Assembly (NCBI GenBank): GCA_007694125.1
Contig: RECH01000358.1
Location: forward strand, 1 to 32,339
DNA length: 32,339 bases
Direction: 5' to 3'
Origin: Leptolyngbya sp. DLM2.Bin15
Lineage (GTDB): Bacteria > Cyanobacteriota > Cyanobacteriia > RECH01
Below are positions 23,112 through 26,314 of this stretch, piece by piece. Numbering within the stretch: the first letter of the stretch is position 1; each line of letters starts with the position of its first letter. The notes beneath the pieces are model-generated. The model searched no databases, was not told the DNA's origin, and worked only from the letters and a program-made list of their open reading frames with translations. The position numbers and the translations under genes were made by a program.

Positions 23112-23281
23112 GTGAGGCATACATCTCCGTGGGCTGAGCAGAGCTAAAGCCTACGGCTCGTTGGGTGGTGCATTGAAGCAAGCCAATCGGAGTGCTATGG
23201 TTTGGGAGTTAGAGACGTGGCTGCCCTGTGTCTCGGTCTCTACACCCAACCCTTAGTCGATGTGATAGTGATCCCGCTGCC

Positions 23282-23500
23282 ATGACAGAAACCCCGTCTC
23301 AACATCAGCCCCACTGGGCCATGCAGCTCCTCCAGCTCTTAGCCTTGTTTTCCATGGCAATTGTGCTTAGCGGTCTAGCCACAAATTACGTCTTCCACCG
23401 AATTCGGCTATTAACAGGAGATGGAGTGAGCTGCACCCGCTATTTACCCAATGGTGGCGTCGAGCGTCTCTATGGTGCTATCCAGTGCGATCGCGACTAG
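23282..23500 (+). CDS. Small single-pass membrane protein, unknown
   Basis: This is a 72-residue ORF from ATG 23282. Residues about 13-36 form one hydrophobic helix (MQLLQLLALFSMAIVLSGLA). A basic and polar tail of about 35 residues follows, with two cysteines (C51 and C69). The sequence is not recognised. The frame extends upstream to an ATG at 23228, but the added 18 residues are atypical. It has one clear transmembrane helix and lies in a same-strand gap, 170 nt after the deaminase and converging on the DUF4335 gene. It is likely real but of unknown function. Confidence 0.55.
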   Translation: MTETPSQHQPHWAMQLLQLLALFSMAIVLSGLATNYVFHRIRLLTGDGVSCTRYLPNGGVERLYGAIQCDRD

Positions 23501-23557: not shown

Positions 23558-25003
23558 CTAGAAGCCTCGCCATGGGCTCACCTGGAGAACACCATCTTGG
23601 GTGATGACCACTAGAAACTGACCCTGATCGTTTTGGCGATCGCTGTTGGTTGCAGCTCCCCGGAGGGCAGGTAGGGGTGTTTTGCTGAGGAACTCCGACG
23701 CCGTATCATCGAGGGGTTCATAATCAACGACTACGCCATCGGGGGTCATGTTCACCCGATAGCTGATGTCTGCAGAGAGCGATCGCCGATCGGCATCATC
23801 CAGACCATCAATCATCAGGTCGTATAAGTCCCAATTGAGATTGGCAAGCTGAGCGGGGTCAGTGATTTCAGTCCCCAATTCTACGGGCTCTTGCTCTGCT
23901 GATGCTTCCGGTAAGCGGCCATGCCACGGGCTGACTTCTACGGCTCCAGCGGGCGTAAAGACCACTCGATATTGGGCCACGGGTTCCTGTTGTGCTACCT
24001 CTGGATCTAGCAAGGTGTATTGCAGATCGGGCAGGGGCGTTTCATCGACCCGGGCTAGAGCTGCATCATTGACATATTTGAAGCCCAAGACATTGCCATT
24101 CTCTGCCACCGCCACTCGGTAGATCAGCGCATCCTCAAAGCTATGCTCTTGAGTCCAGCTATCAAACAGGTTTTCCTGAAGCTGCACCATTAATTGATCA
24201 ACCACATCTGGCTCGATAATCAGCGGCGCATCGTTAAACAGAACCTCTGTTGCCTCATCACTAGCGGCATCTAGGTCACTACCTGTGTCTAGGGATTCTA
24301 CTTCGTCAGAGGATGTTTCAGTGGGGGGATTGTCACCGCTAGCAACCGTATCCGTCGAGTTAGCTTGCACATTAGTGGCGGCTTCAGACGGCGATTCTTC
24401 GGTCGGACGAAACTCGGGTATCGGCACAAAGAAGAAGGCGATCGCGGCGGTGGCTAACCCTGCCACTCCCAATGCTGCGGGCAACGCTCGTTTGGCGAGG
24501 GGTTGTTTCGGGGTGGTTTGACGCTTGCGCACCGGCGTCAGATTGAGCGTTAGCCCTGGAATCGTTTGGCTATCGGCATAGAACTGATCAATGGCTTCCA
24601 CCAAGTCAAACAACTGTACCGTCATCAAGTCAAAACTAATGGACTCTGACTGGGTACGGGCCGGATCATCCGTCAACGCTTGGGGATAAATGGTCAGGCG
24701 ATGGAAGTTGGACGAGACTTGCTCGATTACGACGGGTTGAGTGGAGCCGCCGCGCTCACGGTTGTAGGGCACACCGCTCAAAAACTGTTGGGCGTAGGCG
24801 CTGGCGGTGGTAATCAATTGCTCGAAAAACTCACGCCCGCCTTTAATGGAGCGATCGTGACCATTAAACCGACATTCAAAGCTGGTCAAAATAGATAATA
24901 GGGGACGTCCGGCCGAGTCGCCATTCCCCAAGCCCACCTCTTCGCCCCAACCATCGAGGGTGAGGGTGCAATTTGGCAAGCTATACAGCCGCTGAATACT
25001 CAT
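23558..25003 (-). CDS. DUF4335 domain-containing membrane protein
   Basis: This is a 481-residue protein. Residues 1-160 form the DUF4335 region (LYSLPNCTLTLDGWGEE at 6-22, then SFDLMTVQLFDLVEAIDQF). A basic stretch is followed by one transmembrane helix (about 174-193). Residues 197-255 are an acidic, Ser/Thr-rich linker. The C-terminal part contains two homologous modules (about 264-362 and 384-480), each with YRV near its start, TPLP in the middle and VSPW(H/R)G at the end. The N-terminal side is probably cytoplasmic because of the Lys/Arg residues before the helix. The start overlaps the DUF3038 stop as ATGA (25003-25000), so translation is likely coupled. The family is known from cyanobacteria and its function is unknown. 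Confidence 0.88.
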   Translation of the reverse strand: MSIQRLYSLPNCTLTLDGWGEEVGLGNGDSAGRPLLSILTSFECRFNGHDRSIKGGREFFEQLITTASAYAQQFLSGVPYNRERGGSTQPVVIEQVSSNFHRLTIYPQALTDDPARTQSESISFDLMTVQLFDLVEAIDQFYADSQTIPGLTLNLTPVRKRQTTPKQPLAKRALPAALGVAGLATAAIAFFFVPIPEFRPTEESPSEAATNVQANSTDTVASGDNPPTETSSDEVESLDTGSDLDAASDEATEVLFNDAPLIIEPDVVDQLMVQLQENLFDSWTQEHSFEDALIYRVAVAENGNVLGFKYVNDAALARVDETPLPDLQYTLLDPEVAQQEPVAQYRVVFTPAGAVEVSPWHGRLPEASAEQEPVELGTEITDPAQLANLNWDLYDLMIDGLDDADRRSLSADISYRVNMTPDGVVVDYEPLDDTASEFLSKTPLPALRGAATNSDRQNDQGQFLVVITQDGVLQVSPWRGF

Positions 25004-25605
25004 GCCACTTCCCCGTCAAACACACTACTCCAAAGGCGCTGAGTTCCTGATGTCCCGGTGCAAAACAAGAGCTGACCCAGTAATAAGAGAGCCAGTTCAT
25101 TCAGCTTTTCATCCGTGTCATAGGCCATCACGCCTGCCCGCTTCGGATTCATCCGCGAGCGGAAATGGGCCCGAAATCGCTCCAAATATTCTGCCAACCG
25201 GAAGTGATGATCCAGCGACAGTTGTTTTTCCTGAAGCTGTTGGTGGGCAAGCAACAGTTGACGAATGAGTACGGTTAATCGACGGGCCAGGTTGCAAGCA
25301 ATGAGCACAAGGGCTTTACCCTCTGCCAAGGTGAGAGGACGACGCTGGCTATTGCGACGAAACGGATTGGTGCTCCGCAGCCGCCAGAGCATGACCCGAT
25401 TTTTAATAATGCTTTGCAGTTCTAAGTCTTTGGCGGCCTTGAGGATGGCTTCCGACCCACTGAGGTCGAGCGCTTCAATCGCCAACAAAATCAAGTCAAT
25501 CTGCAAACGGGCCCGGCGCGGACAGACTCCATCCGCAACTGGCATATCTGGCAGGATGTCCAAAATCATAGGCACCGGCTTGGCAGGAGGATGGTGTACT
25601 TGCAT
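25000..25605 (-). CDS. DUF3038 domain-containing protein
   Basis: This is a 201-residue protein, all-helical by appearance and without a membrane segment. It matches the cyanobacterial DUF3038 family as I know it: QIDLILLAIEALDL at about 40-53, a basic middle (RSTNPFRRNSQRRPLTLAEG), and a C-terminal DTDEKLNELALLLLGQLLFCTGT. The frame is open to 25680, but ATG 25605 gives MQVHHPP and a normal beginning; the upstream 25 residues look like translated spacer. Its TGA overlaps the ATG of the DUF4335 gene. It is the first gene of a two-gene operon. The function is unknown. Confidence 0.87.
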   Translation of the reverse strand: MQVHHPPAKPVPMILDILPDMPVADGVCPRRARLQIDLILLAIEALDLSGSEAILKAAKDLELQSIIKNRVMLWRLRSTNPFRRNSQRRPLTLAEGKALVLIACNLARRLTVLIRQLLLAHQQLQEKQLSLDHHFRLAEYLERFRAHFRSRMNPKRAGVMAYDTDEKLNELALLLLGQLLFCTGTSGTQRLWSSVFDGEVA

Positions 25606-26029
25606 TACCCTCGCGAAAATATTCAGCAGAATTGTATCAAAACCGAGGATGACTTTTAGAGAAGACGGGCAAAAAACCACCGGGTAACCGAGTGTGTTTT
25701 CTAGCCTATGAGTGTGTCACCGTTGCGATCGCCAAGGTCACCCCCGTGGGAGTCCACTCAACCATGCTTCTAGTCTGCCCTTAAACATGTTCTTGATGAA
25801 CATATTGATGAGCATAATCTTCGGTTACCGCCTCTGGGGTGTGTGATCTAGCAAAACCACTCCCACAGTTAACGTGCAGTCTTCCAATGGTAGGGTGTTA
25901 CGCGCCAATTTGGGTAAATCTGCCCCAATTTTGTGGGACGCGATCGCTTAGGTAGCGTTGCAGAATGGAGGCTGATCGTGCAACTTTCTCTTCCAGCGTA
26001 GACCCTTACGTTTGACGGAGGCTGCTACC
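25606..26029. other. Spacer upstream of the DUF3038 gene
   Basis: These 424 bases have no convincing gene. The spacer holds GAGTGTGT twice with a 20-nt period (25690 and 25710), a 12-nt tandem duplication at 25793-25816 and HIP1 sites. The promoter of DUF3038-DUF4335 (minus strand) should lie here. Confidence 0.55.
25793..25816. repeat. Near-perfect 12-nt tandem duplication
   Basis: TTGATGAACATA (25793-25804) is followed directly by TTGATGAGCATA (25805-25816), 11 of 12 identical. Confidence 0.9.
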
Positions 26030-26314
26030 TTAAGCTTCAACGGTGACCCCGCGCCAAAAGGCAACATAGCTTTTAATATTCTGAGCAGCGCTCTTCGGTT
26101 CCGGATAATACCAGGCGGCATCTTTATTAGTTTTACCATTCACGGCCAGGGTGTAGTAGCTGGCAACACCTTTCCAGCCGCAGGTCGTGTGGGTTTCGCT
26201 GGGGGTGAAATACTCCATCTGCAACGCATCGGGCGGAAAGTACTGATTGCCTTCAACGACTTCACAGCGATCGCTCTCAGCAATCACGACTCCATTCCAA
26301 ATTGCTCGGGGCAT
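26030..26314 (-). CDS. DUF427 domain-containing protein
   Basis: This is a 94-residue single-domain protein. It has the family pattern: MPRAIWNGVVIAESD, GNQYFPPDAL, then TTCGWKGVASYYTL and AWYYPEPKSAAQNIKSYVAFW. The fold is a small beta-rich tunnel. The family has no firmly known role. The length matches the family and there is no membrane segment. AAGGA lies 10 nt before the ATG. It is divergent from the acyl-ACP synthetase gene, with 171 nt between starts. Confidence 0.93.
   Translation of the reverse strand: MPRAIWNGVVIAESDRCEVVEGNQYFPPDALQMEYFTPSETHTTCGWKGVASYYTLAVNGKTNKDAAWYYPEPKSAAQNIKSYVAFWRGVTVEA

Follow-up and report, generated by a model that had tools for sequence, protein, structure and literature searches.

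A coupled DUF3038–DUF4335 gene pair of cyanobacteria: a candidate membrane complex in the formation or organisation of thylakoids

The window, by which we mean the whole 32,339-nucleotide stretch of Leptolyngbya sp. contig RECH01000358.1 that was analysed, carries two overlapping genes on its minus strand. The upstream gene (25000–25605) encodes a basic, helical DUF3038 protein of 201 residues when the start is taken as the corresponding ATG; a mechanical list of ORFs starts it further upstream, with the GTG at 25680. Its product matches the full length of Pfam PF11237 (model positions 1–168 of 168, E 2.6e-67) with 226.5 bits against a gathering cut-off of 25. The downstream gene (23558–25003) encodes a single-pass membrane protein of 481 residues, in which residues 5–196, i.e., the first 40%, match the whole of PF14233 (DUF4335; positions 1–186 of 186, E 1.1e-58) with 198.6 bits against a cut-off of 27. 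As the initial annotation had reported, the genes share an ATGA at 25000–25003 (TCAT on the plus strand), which combines the TGA stop of DUF3038 with the ATG start of DUF4335. The annotation had described a soluble helical partner and a single-pass membrane partner with an acidic linker, which is right but incomplete, as DUF4335 also carries two C-terminal repeats whose predicted fold resembles the C-terminal domains (CTDs) of TolA and TonB, and the genome contains a second pair. It had also spoken of a two-component system in the broad sense; the strict sense is excluded, since a Pfam scan up to E 1 found no kinase or receiver domain in either protein. NCBIfam holds no model for DUF3038 or DUF4335, and PHROGs no family for either protein. 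Two smaller ORFs flank the pair: a 94-residue DUF427 protein (26030–26314, minus strand; PF04248, E 1.5e-34) and a 90-residue ORF (23228–23500, plus strand) that matches nothing in Pfam, contains one hydrophobic stretch and heads toward the 3′ end of DUF4335.

The AF2 model of the window DUF4335 protein (mean pLDDT 82.3, pTM 0.43) suggests a modular architecture. Residues 1–150 (24554–25003, minus strand, as for all features of the pair) are predicted to form an acidic PUR-alpha-like domain of two repeats, each made of strands and a helix; in the PUR/Whirly fold, each of the two repeats has four strands and a helix. The best fold matches for this domain (VIA) were 2it9 (Z 9.4), PURA 8chv (Z 9.0 over 119 residues, 3.5 Å) and 2nvn (Z 8.4), followed by weaker matches to Whirly (Z about 4) and MRP1/2. 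Both 2it9 and 2nvn are solved cyanobacterial proteins whose function is not known and, unlike DUF4335, they consist of a single domain of about 120 residues. A predicted transmembrane helix follows at residues 177–195 (24419–24475; hydropathy 2.16 over 19 residues). The net charge changes from +6 in the 20 residues that precede the helix to −3 in the 20 that follow, and by the positive-inside rule the protein should therefore be oriented N-in/C-out, with the PUR-like domain probably on the cytosolic side. Next comes an acidic, mostly disordered linker (residues 196–264; 24212–24418), with a pLDDT of about 40–68 that rises up to 90 at its end.

Beyond the linker, two putative outer domains were recognised with a profile of our own, repeat 1 at residues 269–362 (23918–24199; E 1.3e-33) and repeat 2 at residues 387–480 (23564–23845; E 5.5e-23), and these are predicted to lie on the lumenal or periplasmic side. 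Repeat 2 resembles the C-terminal domain of TolA (2x9a; VIA Z 6.0, 78 residues, 3.3 Å) and repeat 1 (model residues 269–356) that of TonB (1xx3; Z 3.7), both below the caution level of Z 8 set for the tool. Pfam gave no match in the region after the linker, and Foldseek on the DUF4335 model returned nothing at E 0.001; the fold assignments are thus best taken as predictions of middling strength. The number of outer domains varies. Among 127 type-A proteins (the type found in the window, where DUF4335 has the long form), 57 have two copies, 39 have one and 31 have none, although contig ends may have truncated some of the 31. The outer domain is missing from all 12 type-A proteins of family f20, whose genomes each have one DUF3038 match that passes the cut-off. 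In type B, exactly one copy was found in 24 of 24 proteins, families f26 and f53 included.

Do the two proteins bind each other? A DUF3038 orthologue (locus L081) is modelled as entirely helical with a pLDDT mostly above 90. No structure resembled the DUF3038 fold in a search with a fused model that barely probed that half, and, by sequence, no solved structure matched below E 0.19. When the L081 chain was read through the junction stop and folded as one, two well-folded domains were obtained with a pTM of 0.56, their mutual placement not being confident in a model whose junction measured two residues and whose alignment paired only 10 rows. Several observations point indirectly toward binding, namely the adjacency and co-duplication of the genes described below, their parallel divergence and, in type A, their opposite charges. 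Across 43 loci without f20, the protein distances of DUF3038 and DUF4335 correlated with r 0.80, compared with 0.64 and 0.78 against the linked gene apt; the partial correlation between the partners was 0.63, a value that none of 2000 permutations reached. In type A, the median pI was 9.66 for DUF3038 and 4.7 for the DUF4335 N-domain (39 rows each), so that the charges are complementary, whereas in type B (5.69 and 5.35, respectively) they are not.

Two conserved elements may provide the contact. In DUF3038, residues 70–88 (25342–25398) hold the motif R-x3-W-R-x-R-x2-NP-x-RR, in which W74 and R77 are invariant and R70, P81, R83 and R88 are conserved in at least 90% of 48 rows covering types A and B (alignment A4). 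In DUF4335, the highly conserved helix LFDLVEAIDQFYAD at residues 131–144 (LFDLVEA-DQF; 24572–24613) contains D133, D139 and D144, which are invariant in 48 rows (alignment A3). We propose the Arg motif and the Asp residues of this helix as the candidate interface, and we infer that the pair most likely forms a membrane complex.

The initial annotation had stressed the strict coupling of the two genes, and in most lineages this holds. Among the best 80 of 497 confirmed matches from 84,980 species, a sample biased toward the kin of the window, DUF4335 lies directly downstream of DUF3038 in 78, and 64 of these 78 pairs have the exact 4-base overlap. The remaining two are a locus that ends 135 bases past DUF3038 (L222) and one without DUF4335 within 4 kb (L238). 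Similarly, in a broader sample, the type-A genes adjoin in 61 of 66 genomes, with 4-base overlaps in 38 and 1-base overlaps in 6. The five others comprise G159, where the end of the locus cuts the pair (the matches lie 24 bases apart by coordinates), and four genomes of family f13. Of five f13 genomes examined, four have the two genes unlinked; G119, of this family too, has them separated by coordinates. In G103, the two matches are about 1.8 kb apart. Type-B genes are adjacent in 23 of 25 cases, with gaps of 0–310 bases and never an overlap, the exceptions being G193, where no DUF4335 is nearby, and G099, present only as a short locus; all intergenic gaps depend on mechanically chosen start codons. 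The coupling is far beyond chance. Frequent separation, or one gene without the other, had been named at the outset as evidence against a coupled pair. Separation does occur in f13 and in the type-B genes of G193, yet both genes persist there, and one gene without the other was seen in no complete genome, L238 alone lacking DUF4335 within 4 kb.

The wider neighbourhood suggests no function. By representatives checked with Pfam, the type-A pair has apt upstream in divergent orientation in 17 family codes, and the type-B pair is preceded on its own strand by mutS2 in 8. A petBD neighbourhood was seen in one congener locus only, and the conserved neighbours listed included no recognisable ExbB/ExbD or TolQ/TolR cluster. 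An RpaB HLR1-like promoter motif showed no excess over shuffled sequences in 116 regions upstream of type A.

The second pair of the same genome is of type B and lies on another contig (G000:C202; locus L094, 3409–5387, minus strand), with its genes 35 bases apart and not overlapping. Most genomes of the class Cyanobacteriia carry two copies each of DUF3038 and DUF4335, and the domain trees (64 DUF3038 and 63 DUF4335 sequences) split both families into types A and B, a split that, by the trees, goes back to an old duplication. A single conflict was observed, in which three f26/f53 rows join type B for DUF3038 and type A for DUF4335 (SH-aLRT 99 in each case), in quick trees with long branches where row L090 may be misplaced. 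Families f9, f10, f18 and f20 have a single DUF3038 match per genome, of type A in the rows placed; families f26 and f53 also have a single match, which the DUF3038 tree places in type B. In one f15 genome (G060; locus L079, 1905–14677), type-A and type-B pairs lie within about 13 kb of each other, pointing apart.

How widely is the pair distributed? In 292 genomes of the phylum, DUF3038 was found in 138 of 139 Cyanobacteriia and in none of 153 genomes of other classes. The corresponding profile search for DUF4335 gave 132 of 139 and 0 of 153, the seven class genomes without a match being six Prochlorococcus-like ones (f20/g32; the label is itself inferred) and G051. A loss of DUF4335 in the six was considered and rejected, as each of them, like three control genomes, has a diverged copy that adjoins DUF3038. 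In these 9 of 9 loci, the gene lies 1–4 bases after DUF3038; the diverged copies of the six (own profile, E about 1e-9 to 1e-11) encode a transmembrane helix. Because the six apparent absences were rescued in this way, the co-occurrence survey finds both genes in 138 of 139 class genomes, G051 being the exception. The Prochlorococcus-like genomes that keep the pair measure 1.6–1.7 Mb. The expectation that both families are limited to cyanobacteria is supported within what was sampled: among 14 control genomes, DUF3038 or DUF4335 matches occurred in Synechococcus elongatus only, and all of the best 80 of 497 matches were cyanobacterial. A search for phage or plasmid carriage of DUF3038 gave no match.

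G051 (f7/g15), a single contig estimated to be 99% complete, was considered as a thylakoid-bearing genome without the pair, and this is doubtful. In its congener G233, petD lies within the 8 kb that surround the type-A pair; G051 shows no DNA match to these 8 kb and has neither petD nor the type-B locus. Since petD and the surrounding region are missing along with the pair, G051 is a poor counter-example, and the missing stretch is perhaps a data gap.

In a larger sample of the class, DUF3038 was found in 376 of 388 genomes. Family f47 accounts for six of the 12 without it, f55 for two and f54 for one; the others are two metagenome-assembled genomes (62% and 68% complete) and G051. DUF4335 is missing from all 12. 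The nine genomes of f47, f54 and f55, which therefore have neither gene, are Gloeobacterales-like. The f55 genome G351 may represent Anthocerotibacter panamensis, the f54 genome can be placed in this group by analogy, and two f47 genomes (G299 and G316) match Gloeobacter violaceus PCC 7421 and G. kilaueensis JS1 as described in the available part of the source (PMC3806779). Family f9 had also been considered as Gloeobacter and was dropped, as KaiB and PsbZ were present in all 23 genomes checked, f9 included. Eight of the nine Gloeobacterales-like genomes have a clear PetD, which indicates that these genomes are photosynthetic. PsbZ is missing from nine of nine, an absence that we take to be a Gloeobacter trait. 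Gloeobacterales have no thylakoids, according to the sections available of a 2026 study of thylakoid origin (PMC13174344). The pair is thus present in nearly every thylakoid-bearing genome sampled and missing from the thylakoid-free ones, which makes it a good candidate for a factor that builds or organises thylakoids. However, the identical absence pattern of PsbZ means that this profile is not specific to membrane formation.

A further pointer comes from plants. The sole mention of either family name found among 5.39 million open-access papers concerns ANU10 (ANGULATA10, At1g28530), a land-plant protein with a DUF4335-like stretch by the authors' own low-significance Pfam match (PMC4036511). 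In the portions of that paper available, Arabidopsis ANU10 is described as a plastid protein recovered in the thylakoid fraction, with one transmembrane helix (residues 421–443 of 614) and protein on both sides of it, as in DUF4335, and anu10 mutants are described as having fewer thylakoid membranes, poor grana stacking and fewer LHCII trimers (PMC4036511). On the other hand, these portions mention no DUF3038 partner, and the authors regarded ANU10 as an embryophyte-specific family with no obvious cyanobacterial orthologue (PMC4036511). Among the matches listed, there was no later functional study of ANU10/At1g28530, nor any useful paper for the tentative gene numbers slr1413, slr1414 and sll1430; the literature search found no localisation or mutant data for the pair.

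Could the pair be part of the machinery that builds thylakoids? We consider it about an even chance that DUF3038 and DUF4335 form an undescribed membrane complex that is obligate in thylakoid-bearing cyanobacteria and serves thylakoid formation or organisation. In such a complex, a single N-in/C-out helix would anchor DUF4335 in the membrane, and the basic, helical DUF3038 would sit on its acidic PUR-like domain on the cytosolic side. The TolA/TonB-CTD-like domains, one or two of them in many lineages, would reach via the flexible linker into the lumen or periplasm. The complex might then act as a scaffold that places or assembles photosynthetic membrane proteins or that keeps membranes at a set distance. 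It may have arisen together with thylakoids, and an early duplication would have given rise to form A, which is compact and coupled by ATGA, and to form B, in which one outer domain is always retained. The phylogenetic profile and the link to ANU10 point the same way, each being weak alone. Against this reading stand the fused-fold pTM of 0.56, the type-B charges, the unlinking in f13, the profile shared with PsbZ and the f26/f53 tree conflict.

Because PsbZ shares the profile of the pair, a role in the photosystems stays a live rival. The pair could be a photosystem or antenna assembly factor that arose with late changes in oxygenic photosynthesis, its effects on thylakoids being secondary, as for Psb27 or PsbZ. 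Like PsbZ, Psb27 and Psb34 were not found in Gloeobacterales according to the available sections of the thylakoid-origin study (PMC13174344), and the shortage of LHCII trimers reported in the available part of the ANU10 paper (PMC4036511) would fit as well. However, the pair has no conserved link to a photosystem operon, its recurrent neighbours being apt and mutS2 and petBD having been noticed in the one congener locus only, and we consider this reading rather unlikely. A less probable explanation is a conserved housekeeping complex that Gloeobacterales lack only by happenstance, through a loss in that order or a later gain that served a different purpose. Gloeobacterales are a small order that differs in other genes too, such as PsbZ, and only the profile and the weak ANU10 match point to thylakoids, but near-universal retention in all thylakoid lineages sampled, the smallest genomes included, speaks against such a complex.

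The predicted shape of DUF4335 raises two further alternatives. With its N-in/C-out topology, linker and C-terminal domains of similar predicted fold (Z 6.0 to TolA, Z 3.7 to TonB), it might be an envelope tether in the plasma membrane, the outer domains binding a periplasmic, cell-wall or outer-membrane partner under the control of DUF3038 from the cytosol. The energising transmembrane helix of TonB and TolA lies near the N-terminus and needs a conserved His. That of DUF4335 lies mid-protein behind a cytosolic PUR-like domain, and no His occurs in any DUF4335 transmembrane segment inspected. Furthermore, the outer domain is missing in 31 of 127 type-A proteins, all 12 of f20 included, and Gloeobacterales possess an envelope yet lack the pair; a tether of this kind is improbable. 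More improbable still is a membrane-bound nucleic-acid binder, in which a PUR/Whirly-like domain would hold mRNA or the nucleoid at the thylakoid surface. The PUR-alpha matches (Z about 8–9), the weak Whirly and MRP1/2 matches and the strongly basic type-A DUF3038 are consistent with such a role. However, in place of the basic nucleic-acid-binding face of PUR and Whirly proteins, the membrane-anchored N-domain of DUF4335 is acidic in 39 of 39 type-A rows (pI 4.17–5.87, net charge −13 to −3, as overall charge rather than a surface map), its sequence showed no similarity to nucleic-acid binders below E 0.1, and type-B DUF3038 is mostly acidic.

The DUF3038–DUF4335 pair is a real, undescribed and ancient two-protein module that may plausibly help to form or organise thylakoids. 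A bolder version of this reading, in which the pair was one of the few inventions at the origin of thylakoids, a scaffold of PUR-fold and TolA-like parts that every thylakoid lineage has kept and whose DUF4335 half was handed on to plants and became ANU10, is doubtful. Few candidate genes bear on how thylakoids originated and are built, and the pair adds a directly testable module that is near-universal where thylakoids occur, missing in the Gloeobacterales-like genomes sampled and perhaps a relative of a plant protein that thylakoid stacking requires. The 2026 study of thylakoid origin started from reference lists of known proteins, and the available portion of its main text contains neither 'DUF' nor 'ANU10' (PMC13174344). 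Among the proteins it does cover in that portion, the SPFH protein Slr1106 resembles Psb27, Psb34 and our pair in being present in thylakoid-bearing cyanobacteria and not in Gloeobacterales, and the DedA protein Slr0305 was gained after Gloeobacterales (PMC13174344); all four belong to families unrelated to DUF3038 and DUF4335.
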